DNA of 64,000 bases, taken from NCBI GenBank assembly GCA_002238505.1, contig MPMM01000001.1:248001-312000 (forward strand), given 5' to 3'. The stretch is from SAR202 cluster bacterium bin22 (GTDB taxonomy: Bacteria; Chloroflexota; Dehalococcoidia; Lucifugimonadales; UBA3495). Below are positions 7,927-16,927 of the stretch, in pieces. The translations under genes were made by a program, and so were the position numbers. Each line of letters opens with the position of its first letter. Position 1 is the stretch's first letter. Below the pieces are notes generated by a model. That model was not told the DNA's origin and searched no databases. It worked only from the letters and a program-made list of their open reading frames with translations.

Positions 7927-8928
7927 ATGAACCACTCAAAGTTGGGCCTTTGCGTTATCGGTTGTGGCGCCTATGCTGCCCAGTTTGCCGGAAGTATGGG
8001 TAAAGTGCGAAGTGAGGTTGACCTCTATTTTGCCAGCAGGGATGCGGGCAAGGCGGAGGACTATGCCCGACGGTTTGAGGGCAAGGGCTGGTTTGGCAGC
8101 TACGCCGAAGCCGCTGAATGTGAGTACCTCGACGCTCTCTACGTTTGTACCCCGCACCACTTGCACCGAGAACACTGCCAACTGGGTGCAGAGAATGGTA
8201 AGCATGTGCTGGTGGAGAAGCCGCTGGCTCACACCTCAGAAGACGGCGCAGCAATTTTAAAGGCAGCAGAATCATCCGCCATAACCCTCATGGTGGCCGA
8301 GAACGTCCGGTTTATTACCCAGGTCCGCCGGTGCAAGCAGCTTGTCCTGGAAGGCGCCATCGGCGACCTGAGGTTGATCAACTTCCAGGAGGAGTTTCCC
8401 TTCCGGTCTGGAGGTTGGCGTAGCCAGGAGGACCTCAATGGCGGGGGAGTAACTATAGATGGTGGCATCCACAAGTTTCATTTTATGAGGTACTTGGTTG
8501 GAGAGCCTGATTCAGTCTTTGCGGTCGAGCTGCCGAGGGCCATGACCGGGCAGGAAGGCGAAGATGGCATGGTGACAACCCTGAGGTGGCCAAACGGAAC
8601 CGTTGGTCTGATTAATCACTCCTGGACTTCGGGCAAGCCCCTTCCGCCCTCGGTACAGGTGGCTGGAACCAATGGACGCATATCTTTTGAAGTCGGCAGC
8701 GGTCGTTTGACCGTGGAATGCGGAAGCAAAGAACGGACTCTGCGCTTCTCGCCTGACAACAGGGGCATTCCCCTGATGGTGCAAGACTTTATTGAGAGTG
8801 TACGTGAAGGCCGCGAACCGGAGACATCGGCTGCGGAGGGCCTCAAGGATTTGATGCTGGTGAATTCAGCGTACAATTCTGCCCGGTCGGGCGGGGTGGA
8901 AAAGGTTAGCTACCCTGGATGCGTCTAG
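7927..8928 (+). CDS. Gfo/Idh/MocA family oxidoreductase
   Basis: This is an NAD(P)-dependent sugar or cyclitol dehydrogenase-type protein of about 333 residues. The N-terminal Rossmann motif LGLCVIGCGAYAAQF is followed by the family signature VCTPHHLHREHCQLGAENGK and HVLVEKPLAHT, where the EKP lysine is the usual catalytic or structural residue. A later GGGVTIDGGIHKFHFMRYLV block contains the substrate-pocket His. ATG 7927 puts the Rossmann strand in the usual place; TTG 7918, with AGGA closer by, is an alternative. The substrate cannot be deduced. It is convergent with glnA. Confidence 0.85.
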   Translation: MNHSKLGLCVIGCGAYAAQFAGSMGKVRSEVDLYFASRDAGKAEDYARRFEGKGWFGSYAEAAECEYLDALYVCTPHHLHREHCQLGAENGKHVLVEKPLAHTSEDGAAILKAAESSAITLMVAENVRFITQVRRCKQLVLEGAIGDLRLINFQEEFPFRSGGWRSQEDLNGGGVTIDGGIHKFHFMRYLVGEPDSVFAVELPRAMTGQEGEDGMVTTLRWPNGTVGLINHSWTSGKPLPPSVQVAGTNGRISFEVGSGRLTVECGSKERTLRFSPDNRGIPLMVQDFIESVREGREPETSAAEGLKDLMLVNSAYNSARSGGVEKVSYPGCV

Positions 8929-8963
8929 ACCGGGAGGAGTAGGGTAAATCGCAGACAGAAAAA

Positions 8964-8988
8964 GAGGGAGAGCACATCGCTCTCCCTC
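8964..8988 (-). terminator. Rho-independent terminator for glnA
   Basis: GAGGGAGAGC and GCTCTCCCTC form a 10-bp stem around ACATC. Read on the minus strand it is followed by TTTTTCTG, so it ends glnA transcription. The plus-strand side has no T run. Confidence 0.8.
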
Positions 8989-9011
8989 TCAACTATTGGC
9001 AAACAGCGGGT

Positions 9012-10391
9012 CTAAAGGTTTGGGAGGTACTGTTCTATTTCGTAGTCGGTAACAGTGGCGCGGTATCTCTGCCACTCCAGGCGCTTGTTGCGAATATAGC
9101 TCTCCAGAATGTGGTCGCCAAGGGCTTCCCGCAAAAGGGAGCTGTCTTCAGCGATTGAGATGGCCTCTCCCAGGCTGCCCGGCAATACCTTTATGCCCTG
9201 GGCACGGAACTCATCACTGGTCATGGCATATACATTTCCCTCGACGGGCGGGACCTCCGGGTATTCCTCCTCAATTCCCTTCATTCCCGCCGCCAGCATA
9301 ACGCTGAAAGCCAGGTAGGGATTGCAGGCCGGGTCCGGCGCGCGGTACTCAATGCGAACGGAGGTCTCGTAACCGGGTTTGTACGAGGGAACCCGTACCA
9401 GGTCTGAGCGATTTCGGGCCCAGGAAATATACACCGGCGCCTCGTAACCGGGCACCAGGCGCTTGTAAGAGTTGACCCACTGGTTGGTCACCAGGGTAAT
9501 TTCCGGCGCATGTCGAATCAGTCCCGATATAAAGCGCTTGGCCACCGAGGAAAGCTTGTATTCGTCCTCCGGGTCGTAAAACGCGTTCACGTCGCCCTTG
9601 AAAAGGGATTGGTGCGTGTGCATTCCCGAACCATTTACCCCGGTGAAGGGCTTGGGCATGAATGAAGCGTGGAAGCCCCGCAACTGAGCCAGTTCCTTAA
9701 TGGCCAGCTTGGCAGTTATCACACTGTCTGCCATGGTCAATGCATCGGTGTATTGAAGGTCAATTTCATGCTGGCTGTGGGCGCCCTCGTGATGGGAATA
9801 CTTGACCGGAATGCCCATGTCCGAAAGGTTCAATACCGTATCCCGGCGAAGGTCGGCAGTGGGGTTGCTGGATAGCTGGTCAAAGTAGCCGTCCTGGTCC
9901 AGGGGCTGGGGTGGCTTGAGCTTGTTGGAGCTGTCCTTTTCAGGTTTTTCCAGGTAAAAGAACTCCAGCTCCGGACCTACATAGTAGGTGTATCCCATTT
10001 GGGACAACCGCTCCAGGTTCCGCTTGAGGGCCAACCTGGGATCACCCATAAAGGGGTCTCCGCCCGGCGAATAGATGTCGCAAAACATGCGGGCTACTGC
10101 ATTTTGCCGGGGCCTCCACGGAAGGACGGCAAAGGTGGTGGGGTCGGGGTATGCCCGCATGTCGCTCTCATCAATTCGGTAAGAGTCCTCGGAGGCTCGG
10201 GCAAATCCCTCGATAGCCGACCCGTCAAAGCCCACCCCTTGTTCTATGGCCTCTTCCAGGTCATCCACGTTAATCGCAAATCCCTTGAGGTTGCCCAGAA
10301 TGTCGGTAAACCAGAGACGCACGAACTTTACGTCATTGTCTCTGGCAGTGCGCAGCACGTATTCCTGCTCGGTGGTGCGCGATTCCATCAT
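9012..10391 (-). CDS. glnA: Glutamine synthetase type I
   Basis: GlnA condenses ammonium with glutamate using ATP. Type I signatures in the 459 residues are KFVRLWFTDILGNLKGFAI, GFDGSAIEGFARASEDSYRI, GPELEFFY, the ATP site NGSGMHTHQSLF, and RIEYRAPDPACNPYLAFSV. The region NVYAMTSDEFRAQGIKVLPG resembles the GSI-alpha class rather than the NLYDLP adenylylation loop of GSI-beta. Control is therefore probably by feedback or protein binding and not by GlnE. GGGAG precedes ATG 10391 (an ATG-ATG pair). It is the last gene of a minus-strand nitrogen block. A second, unrelated glutamine synthetase lies directly upstream. Confidence 0.95.
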   Translation of the reverse strand: MMESRTTEQEYVLRTARDNDVKFVRLWFTDILGNLKGFAINVDDLEEAIEQGVGFDGSAIEGFARASEDSYRIDESDMRAYPDPTTFAVLPWRPRQNAVARMFCDIYSPGGDPFMGDPRLALKRNLERLSQMGYTYYVGPELEFFYLEKPEKDSSNKLKPPQPLDQDGYFDQLSSNPTADLRRDTVLNLSDMGIPVKYSHHEGAHSQHEIDLQYTDALTMADSVITAKLAIKELAQLRGFHASFMPKPFTGVNGSGMHTHQSLFKGDVNAFYDPEDEYKLSSVAKRFISGLIRHAPEITLVTNQWVNSYKRLVPGYEAPVYISWARNRSDLVRVPSYKPGYETSVRIEYRAPDPACNPYLAFSVMLAAGMKGIEEEYPEVPPVEGNVYAMTSDEFRAQGIKVLPGSLGEAISIAEDSSLLREALGDHILESYIRNKRLEWQRYRATVTDYEIEQYLPNL

Positions 10392-10517
10392 TTCAATCTC
10401 CCGAGGCTCGATTCAGTTAGTTTCGCAGGTCAAAAGTTGCGATTGCTCTGGTCCAGGACCTGCAACGAGTAACGAGTAAGAGCTTATCAACCTATTGCAG
10501 GGATTCTCATCGACAGA

Positions 10518-10545
10518 AAACGCCGCCTCGCCCGAGGCGGCGTTT
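10518..10545 (-). terminator. Terminator after type II glutamine synthetase
   Basis: AAACGCCGCCTC pairs with GAGGCGGCGTTT around a 4-base loop, followed on the minus strand by TTTTCTG. It separates the type II synthetase from glnA, implying glnA has its own promoter. Confidence 0.75.
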
Positions 10546-10567
10546 CCATGATCACTGGTTAACCGGT

Positions 10568-11593
10568 TTACCGGCCCTTGGCGTCGGCGCCCACGGTCTC
10601 AACAATCAACCGGGTGACGACGTAGGGGTCAGAGTTGGCATTGGGCCGGCGGTCTTCAATGTAGCCCATTCCGTCCCGGGCCACCTGCCAGGGTATCCGC
10701 ACGGAAGCGCCCCGGTCGGAGACGCCATACCTGAACTCCCGGTAGGAGCAGGTCTCGTGCAGGCCGGTCAGGCGCTCCTCAATCCGGTGACCATAGTTGG
10801 CGATGTGCAGGTCGTGGCGCGTGCTCAGGGCCTCAGCAGCAGCGACGCAGGCTTCGTAATTTTCGCGCATCAGGTTGGTGGAGAAGTTGGTGTGCGCCCC
10901 GGCGCCGTTCCAGTCACCCTTGACCGGCTTGGGATCCAGGGTGGCGCTGATTCCGCGCCGACCATCAACGGTTTCCACGTCCTCGCCGATGCGATAGAGC
11001 AGCCAGCGGGCGAGCCACAGGTGGTCGCCCACGGCAGGGGCGCCGATGGGCCCAATCTGGAACTCCCACTGGGCTGGCATAACTTCGCCGTTAATGCCGG
11101 AAAAAGCCAGGCCGGCGTAAAGGCAGGCCTCCATGTGCTGTTCCACGACCGGTCGTCCGAATACCTCGTCGGAACCTACCCCGCAATAATAGCCGCCCTG
11201 GGGAGCGGGAAAACCGTTATCGGGCCAGCCCAGGGGCTTTATGCCGTCAAAGAAGGTGTATTCCTGCTCGATCCCGAACCAGAAGTCCATATCGGCGTAT
11301 TCCGCAGCCGCAGCCGCGCAGCCCGCCCGGGTGTTGGAAGGATGGGGCGTCATGTCGGTAAGCAGGACTTCGCACATGACCAGTTTGTGGTTGCCGCCGC
11401 GAATCGGGTCGGGAACGACCAGCACGGGATTCAACACGCAGTCCGACGCTTCGCCGGGCGCCTGGTTGGTGCTGGAACCATCGAATCCCCAGACGGGGGG
11501 ATCCTCGCCGTCGGGCACGATCTTGCCCTTGGAGCGCAGCTTTGCCGTAGGCTCCTGCCCGTCAATCCATATGTATTCAGCCTTGTAGCTCAT
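10568..11593 (-). CDS. glnII: Glutamine synthetase type II (eukaryotic-type)
   Basis: At 341 residues this has the length and motifs of the compact GSII family found in eukaryotes and some bacteria. It shows VWGFDGSSTNQAPGEASDC, LVMCEVLLTDMTPHPSNTR, then WEFQIGPIGAP and KPVKGDWNGAGAHTNFST (ATP/glutamate site). It duplicates the glnA reaction with a decameric enzyme that bacteria usually use under nitrogen limitation. GAGG lies upstream of ATG 11593. The amt gene begins 76 bp upstream, so this and amt may share a transcript. The presence of both GSI and GSII next to two transporters points to tuned ammonium scavenging. Confidence 0.95.
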   Translation of the reverse strand: MSYKAEYIWIDGQEPTAKLRSKGKIVPDGEDPPVWGFDGSSTNQAPGEASDCVLNPVLVVPDPIRGGNHKLVMCEVLLTDMTPHPSNTRAGCAAAAAEYADMDFWFGIEQEYTFFDGIKPLGWPDNGFPAPQGGYYCGVGSDEVFGRPVVEQHMEACLYAGLAFSGINGEVMPAQWEFQIGPIGAPAVGDHLWLARWLLYRIGEDVETVDGRRGISATLDPKPVKGDWNGAGAHTNFSTNLMRENYEACVAAAEALSTRHDLHIANYGHRIEERLTGLHETCSYREFRYGVSDRGASVRIPWQVARDGMGYIEDRRPNANSDPYVVTRLIVETVGADAKGR

Positions 11594-11669
11594 TTACTAA
11601 AACCTCGCTATTTGTTTTTCCCTTATGGACTCCATTCCTGTATAAAAGAAGTAACGGGCCCCGGACCAT

Positions 11670-12884
11670 TTAGATGTTGTAGGCTCCCTCGCCGTGAGTG
11701 GAAGTGTCCAGGCCCAGCTGTTCCTCGTTTTCCTCAACTCGCAGGCCGATGGTGTATTTGAGAGCCAGCAGGATTGCGCTGGTAGCGATGAAGGACCATA
11801 TCGCGGTTCCTGCGATACCGACCAACTGAATCAGGACCTGCTCCCCACGGCCCGTCCCATCGGGCAGCGCGCTGTATCCAATGCCCACGAAGAGACCCGT
11901 GGCCAGGGCGCCCCAGGTTCCGCCCATACCGTGAACACCCCAGACTGCCAGGGCATCGTCCACTTTGAGCTTGAGAAGCAGTTCAATGGCGCCGTAACAG
12001 ATTGCTCCTGCCACCAGACCAATTATAACCGCTGGCATTGCGCCCACAAAGCCAGCCGCCGGCGTTATCGCCACCAACCCGGCTACAGCGCCTGACGCGG
12101 CGCCAATGATGCTGGGGCGCTTGCCGAATATCCAGGACATGGCGACCCAGGATACCAGCGCTGCTGCGGCCGCGGTATTGGTTACCACGAATGCGTTGAC
12201 CGCCACACCGTCGGCAGCCAGTGCGCTTCCGGCGTTAAAGCCGAACCAGCCGAACCACAGCAGCCCTGCGCCCAGGACAATCATCGGGACGTTGTGAGGC
12301 GGCATGGGCTGTTCGCCGAAGCCGATACGCTTGCCGATGATCAGGGCAGCTGCCAGGGCAGCTATGCCTGAATTGATGTGGACTACGGTTCCACCGGCGA
12401 AGTCCAGAGCGCCCAGGTTGCCCAGCCATCCACCGCCCCAGACCCAGTGGGTTACGGGGGCGTAAACGACGGTTACCCAGACCACGGTGAAAATGACAAA
12501 GGCGCTGAATTTCATTCGTTCGGCAAAACCACCGGTTATAAGCGCCGGCGTAATGATGGCGAACATTCCCTGGAAGACCATAAAGGTTTGGTGAGAAATG
12601 TTATCGGCGTAGGGACCGGTTTCGTCAGCGCTTACGCCGGCCAGCCCAAACCATTGCAGGTCTCCAACTATTCCCCAGCCACCAAAGTCTCCACTGAATG
12701 CCAGGCTGTAACCCCACAGGACCCAGACTACGCCGACCAGGCCCATACACATAAGGCTGTGCATAATGGTTGCCGTGGCATTCTTCCGGCGTACCAGACC
12801 ACCGTAGAAAAAAGCCAAACCAGGGGTCATAAGAAGTACCAGAGCCGAACAGGCCAGTATCCAGGCGGTATCTCCAGTATTCAT
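11670..12884 (-). CDS. amt: Ammonium transporter (Amt/MEP/Rh family), copy 1
   Basis: The 404-residue protein is an 11-span ammonium channel. Typical stretches are LVLLMTPGLAFFYGGLVRRK, THWVWGGGWLGNLGALDFAG, GGTVVHINSGIAALAAALI, then GWFGFNAGSALAADGVAVNA and VDDALAVWGVHGMGGTWGAL, which carry the pore histidines and phenylalanine-gate region. There is no long N-terminal leader, in contrast to copy 2. A 27-residue membrane micropeptide gene lies 202 bp upstream on the same strand, and GSII follows downstream. No PII (glnK) gene is adjacent, although PII normally blocks Amt channels. Confidence 0.95.
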   Translation of the reverse strand: MNTGDTAWILACSALVLLMTPGLAFFYGGLVRRKNATATIMHSLMCMGLVGVVWVLWGYSLAFSGDFGGWGIVGDLQWFGLAGVSADETGPYADNISHQTFMVFQGMFAIITPALITGGFAERMKFSAFVIFTVVWVTVVYAPVTHWVWGGGWLGNLGALDFAGGTVVHINSGIAALAAALIIGKRIGFGEQPMPPHNVPMIVLGAGLLWFGWFGFNAGSALAADGVAVNAFVVTNTAAAAALVSWVAMSWIFGKRPSIIGAASGAVAGLVAITPAAGFVGAMPAVIIGLVAGAICYGAIELLLKLKVDDALAVWGVHGMGGTWGALATGLFVGIGYSALPDGTGRGEQVLIQLVGIAGTAIWSFIATSAILLALKYTIGLRVEENEEQLGLDTSTHGEGAYNI

Positions 12885-13086
12885 AATTTGCCATCTCCCT
12901 TTTGGCGAAAACAGCGAACGGAATTTGGAATTCGGATGCTACGGCTTCTGATAACCCGGGGGCGGGCCCCAACATTCACTTTAAGAATAGAAACAGCCCA
13001 TACTCCAATCGATTTGCTCGAAGTATGGACCTTTCCGGGTTACAGTTTGAGCGCTTTTCCTGAAGGATTGAGCTTCGGTGTACTGA

Positions 13087-13170
13087 CTACTTCTTCAGGA
13101 ATAGCTTCGGCAGCAAAACCCACATGCTGAAGAGTCCTACGAATGCTGCCCCCGCTGCGATCAATTCCAT
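13087..13170 (-). CDS. 27-residue single-span membrane micropeptide next to amt (copy 1)
   Basis: This is a 28-codon ORF with CGAGGAG upstream of its ATG (13168-13170). The peptide has an acidic N-terminus (ME), about 18 hydrophobic residues with the core AAFVGLFSMWV, then PKLFLKK. That is one membrane helix with a positively charged end, so the C-terminus is probably cytoplasmic. A second ORF at 13361-13444 encodes a peptide identical at 18 of 27 positions. Eight of those 18 residues use different codons, and all nine substitutions are hydrophobic for hydrophobic, which indicates selection on protein sequence. Its position between two amt genes suggests an Amt partner, in the manner of other tiny membrane subunits. 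I know of no described family. Confidence 0.75.
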   Translation of the reverse strand: MELIAAGAAFVGLFSMWVLLPKLFLKK

Positions 13171-13243
13171 TTCTTGTTGCTCCTCGCCAATGGTTTATGG
13201 CCCAAATTTTGGATTCCTAATGTTTCGGGGAATTTACCAACTT

Positions 13244-13258
13244 GTTAACTTTTTGTTA
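13244..13258. promoter_or_regulatory. Inverted-repeat motif upstream of micropeptide copy 1
   Basis: GTTAACTTTTTGTTA (extended on both sides as TTGTTAAC-N5-GTTACAA) lies 73 bp from the micropeptide start. It matches 13 of 15 bases of the motif at 13516-13530, which sits 71 bp from micropeptide copy 2. It is a candidate site for a nitrogen regulator; the regulator is unknown. Confidence 0.5.
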
Positions 13259-13360
13259 CAAGAACCTGGTTGCTCGCCTGGCCAGAGGTCCATTTCTTCC
13301 GCCTGGTCAACCGGTTCCAGGTACGAATCAAGGATCATTGAACCGGCTCAGGCGTTCAGC

Positions 13361-13444
13361 CTACTTCTTAAGCAGCATCTTGGGGACCACAACCCAAAGA
13401 CTGAAGAGACCGATAAAGGCTGCTGCTGCAAGAATGGCTTCCAT
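13361..13444 (-). CDS. 27-residue single-span membrane micropeptide next to amt (copy 2)
   Basis: This is the paralogue of the ORF at 13087-13170: 28 codons, start at 13442-13444, with GCAGGAG upstream. It has the same architecture, with ME, a hydrophobic helix with core AAFIGLFSLWV, then PKMLLKK. Strictly shared positions include F-x-G-L-F-S-x-W-V, P-K and the final L-K-K. It lies 265 bp downstream of amt copy 2, beyond a terminator, so it probably has its own promoter. The leader sequences of the two copies also align (TTCCC-GAAACA, then TCCAAAAT and GGG-CAT-AAC), so the whole promoter-leader-ORF unit was duplicated. One copy may serve each transporter. Confidence 0.75.
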   Translation of the reverse strand: MEAILAAAAFIGLFSLWVVVPKMLLKK

Positions 13445-13515
13445 ACTTTGTACTCCTGCGAATTAGTTGATGACCCTATTTTGGAAGGCGGGTGTTTCAG
13501 GGAAATATCGCAAAA

Positions 13516-13530
13516 GTAAACTTTGTGTTA
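13516..13530. promoter_or_regulatory. Inverted-repeat motif upstream of micropeptide copy 2
   Basis: GTAAACTTTGTGTTA (as AAGTAAAC-N5-GTTAACTT, one mismatch between the arms) is placed 71 bp upstream of the micropeptide start. It is nearly the same sequence and distance as the copy 1 motif. Confidence 0.5.
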
Positions 13531-13647
13531 ACTTGCCAAAGCTTGTCAGGTTGTCATTTTCGATGCCTCAGGCCCTTCAATCTTGACTGATTGTCCGCTG
13601 CAAGATTCAAACCAGGCGCCGCCCTCAGTGCTTGACGTAAAGGAAAT

Positions 13648-13670
13648 GGGGCAGCCATAAAGGCTGCCCC
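13648..13670 (-). terminator. Terminator after amt copy 2
   Basis: GGGGCAGCC and GGCTGCCCC form a 9-bp stem around ATAAA. On the minus strand it is followed by ATTTCCTTTA. It lies 40 bp after the amt stop codon. Confidence 0.65.
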
Positions 13671-13709
13671 ACGGAGTTAACCTTTAGAATTTGGTCGACG
13701 GGACTGGAG

Positions 13710-15062
13710 CTAGCTCATCTGGTATGCTTCCATGCCGTGCTCGGAAGCATCCACCCCGGCCATCTCCTCCTCCTCGGTCAACCGTACGCCCATGCCAACC
13801 TTCAGGATGAAGAACATCAGGAAGCCGGCACCCAGGGCCCATGCCAGTACCACTGCCATGCTGATCAGCTGGGGCACCAGCAAATCTACGCTGCCTCCCA
13901 CCAGCCCAGTAGTGCCGTTGTTGCCGCTGGCGAATATCGCTACCGCCAGGAGGCCCCAGAGACCGCAAACGCCGTGTACCGAAGACGCTCCCACCGGGTC
14001 GTCAATCTTGAGCACCCTTTCGATAAATACCACGGAAATCATCATTATCGGGGCGGCCAGCGCGCCAATAACCACAGCAGCCCAGGGGTCCACGTAGGCA
14101 ACCGGAGCGGTTATACCTACCAGTCCTGCCAGCGCGCCGTTGCAGGACATCAGAATGTCGATCTTGCCCGACCTGATCAGCTGGATGTAAAGGGCAACGA
14201 CCGCGCCGGTGGCGCCGGCCAGCAGTGTGTTAACTGCGTTCAGTCCGATTGAATCCCCAGAGTTAATGTTGAAACCGAACCAGCCGAAGAACAGTATGAA
14301 CGTGCCTATGATCACATAGGGAACATTGTGCCCAAAGAGCTGGTTGACGGAACCGTCGGCGTTGAATTTGCCGGTCCTCGGGCCCACCACGGCAGCGCCG
14401 GCCAGGGCTACGAAACCACCAACCGCGTGAACCACGCCGGAACCGGCATAGTCAGCCGCGCCCAGTGCTGCCAGCCATCCGTCGCCGTTCCAGACCCAGT
14501 GACCGTACAGCGGGTAGATTATGGCGCCGATCAGGAAACTGTAGGCGAAGTAGGCCTGGGTCTTGGTGCGCTCGGCCACCGCGCCGGCCACTATGGTAGC
14601 TGCCGTTCCGGCAAACACCATCTGGAACATCCAGTCCACGTAAACCTGCCAGTCATCGCCGCCGTTCAGCAGGAAGAAGTTGTCTGTCCCCGCGATGCCT
14701 GCCGCCGACGCGCCCATCATAATGGCGAATCCGAAAGCCCAGAAGGACAGGGAGGCAATGGCAAAATCCATGAAACTCTTGGTCATGTAATTGACCGTGC
14801 TCTTGGACCGTATCAGGCCCGCGCCCAGGAAGGCGAAACCGGCCTGCATAAAGAAGACCAGGAAGGCTGCCATCATGGTTGTAAGGTTTCCGACGTCAGT
14901 AGCAGCGGTTGCCGCTACTTCTTCCACGGTTGGATCGTCCTGTGCCAAGGCTATGTTCCAACCCATCATGATGGCCGAGGCCAGGAGTCCGGCCAGCACG
15001 TAGGGAAGGAACCTCCGCAAAGTTAAGGGGCTTAAACCAGGGTTCCAAATTCTGGTAAGCAT
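13710..15062 (-). CDS. amt: Ammonium transporter (Amt/MEP/Rh family), copy 2, with leader
   Basis: This 450-residue Amt is only distantly similar to copy 1. It opens with a hydrophobic leader (LPYVLAGLLASAIMMGWNIA, then LAQDD), which looks like a cleavable signal peptide as in AmtB. An acidic linker and the channel follow: FFMQAGFAFLGAGLIRSKS, LYGHWVWNGDGWLAALG, SGVVHAVGGFVALAGAAVV, GWFGFNINSGDSIGLNAVN and DDPVGASSVHGVCGLWGLLA carry the conserved pore elements. AGGAGGAG is present 13 bases before ATG 15062. It heads the minus-strand nitrogen block. Two divergent Amts in tandem suggest different affinity or a sensor/transporter split, which is inference. Confidence 0.95.
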   Translation of the reverse strand: MLTRIWNPGLSPLTLRRFLPYVLAGLLASAIMMGWNIALAQDDPTVEEVAATAATDVGNLTTMMAAFLVFFMQAGFAFLGAGLIRSKSTVNYMTKSFMDFAIASLSFWAFGFAIMMGASAAGIAGTDNFFLLNGGDDWQVYVDWMFQMVFAGTAATIVAGAVAERTKTQAYFAYSFLIGAIIYPLYGHWVWNGDGWLAALGAADYAGSGVVHAVGGFVALAGAAVVGPRTGKFNADGSVNQLFGHNVPYVIIGTFILFFGWFGFNINSGDSIGLNAVNTLLAGATGAVVALYIQLIRSGKIDILMSCNGALAGLVGITAPVAYVDPWAAVVIGALAAPIMMISVVFIERVLKIDDPVGASSVHGVCGLWGLLAVAIFASGNNGTTGLVGGSVDLLVPQLISMAVVLAWALGAGFLMFFILKVGMGVRLTEEEEMAGVDASEHGMEAYQMS

Positions 15063-15388
15063 GGTGAGCTACTCTCCTCCTAGTAATATGCTAGCCAGGA
15101 TTGTATTGCTCGTCCCCCAGCAGAATATTGCCCCGGTGTAACAATAGTTTTTCGGGAATGTTAATTGTTTCGTCAAAATTGTTCTCCCTGTAATGGTTTT
15201 GCAACAATTGAACGTGGGACCTGCCCCAGTACCGAAACACCGGCAACCGGCTGCATCAAGAAGTGAAATGGGTTCATGCCTCAACGAAGTTGTTTCGGCC
15301 TCCATCCTCACCTCTTAGGCTTCTTTGCTCCGGGCTCCAGGTTGCTCAAGGCTTCAATTCCAGCAATACAGGTTGTAAACTGTTGAAT
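15063..15388. other. Divergent intergenic region between amt copy 2 and lysS
   Basis: This AT-richer spacer between divergent genes must contain promoters for both. GTTAATTGTTTCGTC at 15160-15174 is a weak (10 of 15) match to the micropeptide motif and lies 98 bp from the amt start. I found no convincing promoter boxes and no gene. Confidence 0.4.
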
Positions 15389-16927
15389 ATGCAAGATCGA
15401 GAAGATTCGCTGGTTGGAAGCCGGATAGTAAAGCTGGAAAGGATGCGGGAGAAGGGCATAGACCCCTACCCGCCCCGTTACAGGCGGACAGCCCCTGCCG
15501 CCTCCGCAGTAGCTGAGTTTGAAGCATGGGAAAGTCAGGCGGGCGACGATAGTGAATCCAATCCATCTCCCGAACATGCCCTGGCCGGCCGCGTGGTATC
15601 CATGCGTGTCATGGGGCGGGCTGCGTTTCTGGATATCCGTGACGGTTCTGGCGCAGTTCAGGCCATGTTCCGGCAGAACGTATTGGGTGATGGCTATGAG
15701 CTTCTGAAAGATCTGGATCTGGGGGACTTTATCGGCGTTGCGGGACGTATGTTGCGAACCCGCACCGGCGAAGTAACCATTGAGGCCCAGGATGTAACCG
15801 TCCTTGCCAAGGGGATGCGTCCGCTCCCGGAAAAGTTTCATGGCTTGCGTGACGTTGAAATCAGGTACCGGCAACGCTATCTGGACTTAATTGCTGACCC
15901 GGAAGTAATGGAGGCCTTTGCCCAGCGCAGTCGGGTTATCAACAGCATCAGGCGCTTCCTTGACGGTCGGGGATTCCTGGAAGTGGACACTCCAATCCTG
16001 GTACCAGTGGCCGCCGGCGCCCATGCCCGTCCCTTCGATACCCATCACAATGCCCTAAACCAGCGTCTATATCTCCGCATCGCCACAGAGCTGTATCTGA
16101 AGCGGCTGATTGTGGGCGGTTTTGACAAGGTTTATGAGATCGGCAGGGTCTTTCGCAACGAAGGCATAGACCAGGACCACAATCCTGAATTTACCCTCCT
16201 GGAAAGCTACGAAGCGTACGCCGACTACAACGATGTGATGACAATGGTCGAAGGCATGGTTTCCACCGCCGCCCTGGATGCCCGGGGAACTATGTCCATC
16301 CCATACGGAGACGAAATCATTGACTTCACTCCCCCTTGGCCCCGCCTTCAATTGAATGAGGAGCTTTATCGCCGCAGCGGTGTGGACATTGACGAATATC
16401 TCGAAGATGAAGCTCTGGTCAGGAAGGTGTCTCAGCTGGGCATCGAAGTGGGGATCCGGGAGAGTCGGGGACGTCTGATCGACAAGCTCGTTTCAACCTT
16501 TGTTGAACCCAATCTGGTGCAGCCAACTTTCTTGCTGGACTACCCGGAGGACATGTCACCGCTGGCCAAGGCCAAGCCCGGTGCTCCAGGCTACGTGGAA
16601 CGTTTTGAAGCCTTCGCAGCTGGCATGGAGATCGCCAATTCCTACACTGAGTTGAACGACCCGGCGGTGCAAAGGGAACGTTTCGAGGCCCAGGAGTCTA
16701 TCCGCGAAAGATACCAGGATGAAGAGGTGGACCGCCTGGACGAGGACTTCCTGACAGCCCTGGAGTATGGCATGCCCCCCACTGGCGGCTTGGGTGTAGG
16801 CATTGACCGGCTGGTGATGCTGTTGACCGGCCAGGCCAGCATCCGCGACGTATTGCTGTTTCCCCAGATGCGCTCTCGGAGAGATGACCAGGGGGACACG
16901 GCATCTGAAGAATCCGATGCCATATAG
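15389..16927 (+). CDS. lysS: Lysyl-tRNA synthetase, class II
   Basis: The enzyme charges tRNA-Lys. From ATG 15389 it has 512 residues, the usual length. An in-frame upstream ATG at 15263 would add 42 residues with no family similarity. The order of domains is an OB-fold anticodon-binding domain (AGRVVSMRVMGRAAFLDIRD, then GSGAVQAMF), then the class II core with motif 1 (RSRVINSIRRFLDGRGFLEV), motif 2 (FRNEGIDQDHNPEFTLLE) and motif 3 (GGLGVGIDRLVMLL). No clear Shine-Dalgarno precedes the ATG. serS follows on the same strand after 89 bp, so the two may be co-transcribed. Confidence 0.95.
   Translation: MQDREDSLVGSRIVKLERMREKGIDPYPPRYRRTAPAASAVAEFEAWESQAGDDSESNPSPEHALAGRVVSMRVMGRAAFLDIRDGSGAVQAMFRQNVLGDGYELLKDLDLGDFIGVAGRMLRTRTGEVTIEAQDVTVLAKGMRPLPEKFHGLRDVEIRYRQRYLDLIADPEVMEAFAQRSRVINSIRRFLDGRGFLEVDTPILVPVAAGAHARPFDTHHNALNQRLYLRIATELYLKRLIVGGFDKVYEIGRVFRNEGIDQDHNPEFTLLESYEAYADYNDVMTMVEGMVSTAALDARGTMSIPYGDEIIDFTPPWPRLQLNEELYRRSGVDIDEYLEDEALVRKVSQLGIEVGIRESRGRLIDKLVSTFVEPNLVQPTFLLDYPEDMSPLAKAKPGAPGYVERFEAFAAGMEIANSYTELNDPAVQRERFEAQESIRERYQDEEVDRLDEDFLTALEYGMPPTGGLGVGIDRLVMLLTGQASIRDVLLFPQMRSRRDDQGDTASEESDAI

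Follow-up and report, generated by a model that had tools for sequence, protein, structure and literature searches.

Small proteins at transporters and related regulatory systems

Few transporters have been studied as much as Amt channels, whose classic regulators in bacteria are the PII proteins. We know of no membrane microprotein partner of a bacterial Amt. The functionally nearest known system is sP36 of Methanosarcina mazei, a small protein of 61 residues linked to AmtB and to nitrogen status. It is proposed to inhibit AmtB1 by mediating the binding of GlnK1, and it is dispersed in the cytoplasm under nitrogen limitation and goes to the membrane on nitrogen upshift (PMC10714827). In the 64,000-nucleotide stretch of SAR202 DNA analyzed here (the window), two genes, mpA and mpB, encode 27-residue microproteins and lie between two ammonium transporter genes (Table 1). 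They belong to a Chloroflexota family of 27-50 residues predicted to form an intrinsic membrane helix, whereas sP36 is archaeal, longer and relocating, which sets the two apart by description.

Among accessory proteins of other complexes, KdpF is a very short subunit with a single helix. KdpF, CydX (PMC4325964) and AcrZ (PMC7267776) are nearest to the microproteins in form, in that each is very short, consists of a single hydrophobic helix, and either is encoded alongside a larger membrane complex or binds to one. They differ in their partners. Searches of Pfam and NCBIfam at E values up to 10 gave no match to the CydX, KdpF or AcrZ families, for which very short models can be missed.

For regulation, the nearest described system is the actinomycete GlnR regulon, whose putative targets include genes for ammonium transport and urea uptake and whose box in Streptomyces has the form a-b-a-b, with gTnAc-n6-GaAAc repeated (PMC3087709, PMC10704036). 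The system studied here resembles it in its repeated gTnAC-n6-GaAAC boxes and in the association with ammonium transporter and urea uptake genes. It differs in having a Chloroflexota host, in having microproteins as the most frequent target, and in having a regulator that is at most a putative GlnR.

Table 1 Features of the ammonium transporter and glutamine synthetase region, in window coordinates
Feature	Position	Strand	Details
glnA-type glutamine synthetase	9012..10391	-	459 aa; TIGR00653 GlnA, 476 bits
glnII-type glutamine synthetase	10568..11593	-	341 aa; NF041605 GlnII, 579 bits
amt1 ammonium transporter	11670..12884	-	404 aa; TIGR00836, 462 bits, above cut-off
mpA microprotein	13087..13170	-	27 aa, ATG..TAG, MELIAAGAAFVGLFSMWVLLPKLFLKK; paralogue of mpB; ORF, alignment, profile homologues, purifying selection
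-10-like CAAAAT of mpA	13206..13211	-	11 bp after box
mpA GlnR-type box	13222..13259	-	GTAAC-n6-TTAAC-n6-GTAAA-n6-GAAAC; score 16.0, best in window
mpB microprotein	13361..13444	-	27 aa, ATG..TAG, MEAILAAAAFIGLFSLWVVVPKMLLKK; ORF, alignment, profile homologues, purifying selection
-10-like CAAAAT of mpB	13478..13483	-	11 bp after box
mpB GlnR-type box	13494..13531	-	TTAAC-n6-TTTAC-n6-GATAT-n6-GAAAC; score 14.6; conserved in genus alignment
Intrinsic-terminator-like hairpin	13646..13672	-	11 pairs; after amt2, before mpB promoter; weak alone
amt2 ammonium transporter	13710..15062	-	450 aa; TIGR00836, 406 bits, above cut-off
Weaker GlnR-type box upstream of amt2	15127..15164	-	TTAAC-n6-GAAAA-n6-GTTAC; score 14.0

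A family of single-helix microproteins

The initial annotation had described mpA and mpB as paralogous membrane micropeptides of no named family, and this description holds. Both ORFs were found where it had placed them, with 27 codons and a TAG, and AGGAG/GAGGAG ribosome sites directly precede their ATGs. Its counts were reproduced by alignment and by a codon comparison made by eye, with 18 of 27 residues identical, eight silent codon differences at the identical positions, and nine replacements that are all hydrophobic. No match near a curated cut-off was found in Pfam or NCBIfam, and literature searches returned no description of the family.

Conservation in related genomes and dN/dS had been suggested as checks. 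With the microprotein alone as query and amt never part of it, a profile built from the two sequences had matches in 14 of 393 genomes of the class, mostly beside amt, and an enriched profile had matches in 30 of the 393. Enriched profiles also matched 71 of the 247 genomes in the window's own order, compared to none of the 247 with a reversed profile, and 43 of 400 genomes across the phylum, some of them weakly. The phylum-wide search placed relatives in other Chloroflexota classes as well. A narrow-pattern scan of about 85,000 GTDB species found Chloroflexota only, but because the pattern was strict, the lack of matches outside Chloroflexota carries little weight. Within the window's genome (4.4 Mb), mpA and mpB are the sole matches. 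No disrupted copies were seen among the matches inspected.

Non-synonymous change is low in comparison with synonymous change. Against its same-genus orthologue, mpA has a pS of 0.80 and a pN of 0.03, and mpB has 0.68 and 0.05, respectively; in the g228 group, whose members have 49 residues, the non-synonymous/synonymous ratio is 0.15. Alignment across the genus shows diverged spacers, against which both ORFs and the boxes upstream of them are conspicuous. Each of mpA and mpB forms its own line of orthologues in the genus, which dates the duplication to before the genus. By these substitution patterns the microproteins are protein-coding and under purifying selection in several genera, and on the profile matches they constitute a real, previously unnamed family that is widespread in Chloroflexota.

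The same comparison bears on the idea that the ORFs are leader peptides or attenuators whose translation controls a downstream amt or glutamine synthetase (GS) gene. Many copies do precede amt1, amt2 or GS by about 100-400 bp, and the genus alignment contains a conserved inverted repeat between mpA and amt1. However, residues are kept while synonymous sites diverge, some copies are orphans or lie downstream of amt, there is no run of regulatory codons, and Rfam gave no RNA element match in 8500-15500, which together leave this idea with hardly any probability. The repeat itself, CCATACT...AGTATGG at 12998-13028, is a possible amt1 operator or RNA hairpin.

The initial annotation had also read the pattern F-x-G-L-F-S-x-W-V...P-K...L-K-K as strictly kept. 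Part of this stands, as F10 and P21 occur in all 133 distinct members, an invariance favored in part by the selection of members by profile, and W17 is retained in 125 members and replaced by F in the other 8. The C-terminus is rich in lysine and arginine across these members, with L-K-K not strictly retained. Mean hydropathy over 19 residues is 2.0-2.3, which predicts an intrinsic membrane helix and not a soluble, relocating protein of the sP36 kind. A model of a 43-residue homologue consists of one helix (residues 3-35), with blocks 1-20 at pLDDT 91-94, and the conserved residues tend to lie on one side of the helix (p about 0.02 by permutation). From hydropathy and the positive-inside rule we infer a single membrane pass, with a short acidic N-terminus outside and a lysine-rich C-terminus inside.

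Several candidates were set aside. Matches at L135, L137 and L165 (...ESDIGSKIR...) were excluded as probably another family. Together with L045, these loci encode a second small membrane peptide, ...FxxLWVVLPxRxxESDIGSKIRxFF..., which has no Pfam match and is weakly similar to the microproteins but probably unrelated. Large open frames around some copies appeared on inspection to be GC-driven and not fusion proteins.

Linkage to amt and the proposed role

All genes of the region are on the minus strand, giving the transcription order amt2, mpB, mpA, amt1, glnII, glnA. The GlnII-type glutamine synthetase (10568-11593) adjoins the type I GlnA. Linkage of the microprotein to amt is strong and conserved; an amt gene is found no more than 2 kb away from 82 of 123 copies, and 91 of 123 have amt, PII or GS within that distance. 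The commonest layout is amt2-MP(1-4)-amt1-[PII]-[MP]-glutamine synthetase (MP, microprotein), and a SAR202 bin (L060) has the order amt2-MP-amt1-GS as in the window, with neighbors that are 72-73% identical. The microprotein is downstream of amt2 in SAR202-type loci and upstream in others (L051-L057, L169, L172, L174, L193), and the linkage recurs in several Chloroflexota classes.

Two earlier suggestions do not survive the wider comparison. Two amt genes with two micropeptides is not a rule, since the number of copies ranges from one to four and does not track that of amt, and the host genome has four amt genes, two of them on another contig without microproteins. Loci L102 and L114 each carry four tandem microprotein genes after amt2, with one box for each. 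Replacement of a missing PII was ruled out, as the genome encodes PII at C16:985893 (97 bits), and many relatives have PII in the microprotein's own cluster.

The initial annotation's proposal of an Amt subunit, assembly factor or channel regulator is still the leading candidate for the role. We assign a probability of about 0.5 to the reading that mpA and mpB are single-pass microproteins with GlnR-type promoters of their own and form a putative accessory subunit of an Amt2-type transporter. Each gene would be transcribed from its own promoter with a GlnR-type box. Since that promoter carries the box, nitrogen limitation probably induces the genes along with amt2. The helix would span the membrane, and the conserved face of F10, F14, W17 and P21 would most likely pack against the Amt2-type transporter, where the microprotein may stabilize or tune the channel. 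The linkage and the box shared with amt2 suggest that the microproteins help ammonium uptake. More tentatively, they may represent a hitherto undescribed class of nitrogen-starvation-induced single-helix Amt subunits across Chloroflexota, including SAR202 relatives, which lineages multiply into tandem arrays with a GlnR-type promoter for each copy and which tune Amt besides PII. If true, a conserved microprotein partner of Amt in Chloroflexota, including SAR202 relatives, would be a new layer of control on ammonium uptake. The SAR202 group is abundant.

Some loci count against a strict dependence on Amt. Exceptions to the linkage are genus g228 (one to three tandem copies), family f133 and some isolated loci, and neither g228 nor f133 has amt closer than about 6 kb to the microprotein. 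All 12 genomes checked encode Amt, those of these exceptional groups at another site. The sole genome with a solid microprotein match and no Amt match is G157 of the order set (97% complete, 130 contigs). Its microprotein (L142) lies beside GS, between it and rnc, which encodes RNase III on the opposite strand. In the order, the majority of genomes that carry Amt lack a detectable microprotein, which indicates that Amt generally does not need it.

These loci are relevant to two other readings, both of which we consider unlikely. In one, the microprotein does not act on Amt itself but on ammonium assimilation at the membrane, where its charged cytoplasmic C-terminus would recruit PII or glutamine synthetase to the vicinity of the transporter or regulate them there. 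A second subtype (type B) between PII and GS (L036, L039, L042-L044, L136, L140, L155) is consistent with this, as are the MP-GS arrangement without Amt in G157 and the many amt2-MP-GS loci without amt1. However, the tail of the window copies has only a few residues, its length and sequence vary across the family, and conservation resides in the membrane helix. In the other, a membrane microprotein of nitrogen starvation has a target beyond ammonium uptake, such as another transporter, the respiratory chain or the lipid bilayer, and linkage to amt reflects ancestral clustering of the regulon. The one genome without a detected Amt fits this, as do the orphan tandem arrays of g228, which keep their boxes despite their distance from amt, but adjacency to amt2 recurs with either gene order and among distant classes.

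GlnR-type boxes and a candidate regulator

The boxes in front of mpA and mpB, which were not among the observations of the initial annotation, have four 5-mer half-sites with n6 spacing and an 11-bp period. Their consensus matches published GlnR boxes (PMC3087709, PMC10704036), which are actinobacterial, while the host belongs to Chloroflexota. Shuffles of the window are expected to give 0.25 box sites scoring at least 14.5. With a simple half-site model, written after the window's own boxes had been seen, 110 of 122 microprotein upstream regions exceeded the 99th percentile of dinucleotide shuffles, including those of copies far from amt. The -10-like element is conserved in position across 105 aligned upstream regions. 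The terminator-like hairpin after amt2 is weak evidence alone because the regional count of such sites equals the shuffle mean.

Across 868 kb of loci, 117 strong box clusters were found, located before the microprotein (85), amt2 (27), amt1 (2), GS (2) and elsewhere (1). Retention of the box by the g228 orphans argues that the microprotein itself, rather than a neighbor, is the regulated gene. On this promoter evidence, the microproteins are probably transcribed separately and induced by nitrogen starvation. No box was found in front of the copies from other Chloroflexota classes, and the link to GlnR is thus limited to the class studied.

Type I toxins resemble the microproteins in size, hydrophobicity and tandem arrays. 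The arrays of up to four copies, with a box for each, could therefore be read as short hydrophobic toxins of this kind, which we regard as very improbable; specific residues are conserved over a long range, the context of amt, PII and GS is syntenic, the box is of a nitrogen type, and no paired antitoxin gene was seen.

The GlnR-type box predicts a nitrogen regulon in Chloroflexota, for which our literature search found no described GlnR regulon. Genome-wide, we used only sites with zero to one mismatch because at three mismatches the reversed-pattern control was similar (14 versus 20 sites). In the window's genome, the other such boxes precede an atypical OmpR-type regulator, urtA and one unassigned gene. 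The regulator (L213, 680-1396, minus strand) is an orphan with a perfect GlnR-type box in front (C22:23788). It has an OmpR-type DNA-binding domain, its receiver domain was not recognized, and its best PDB matches are the OmpR-family chains 8hig/8hih, whose titles do not name GlnR and which we do not count as proof. Related OmpR-type regulators are found in or near at least eleven microprotein clusters, and the one inside L042 matches PF21695 GlnR_1st below the cut-off (20.7 of 27 bits). The L213 protein is a putative GlnR-type regulator of the boxes. The gene urtA encodes a urea ABC transporter substrate-binding protein (TIGR03407, 598 bits) and is preceded by a box with one mismatch (L215, 1501-1538; C40:54612).
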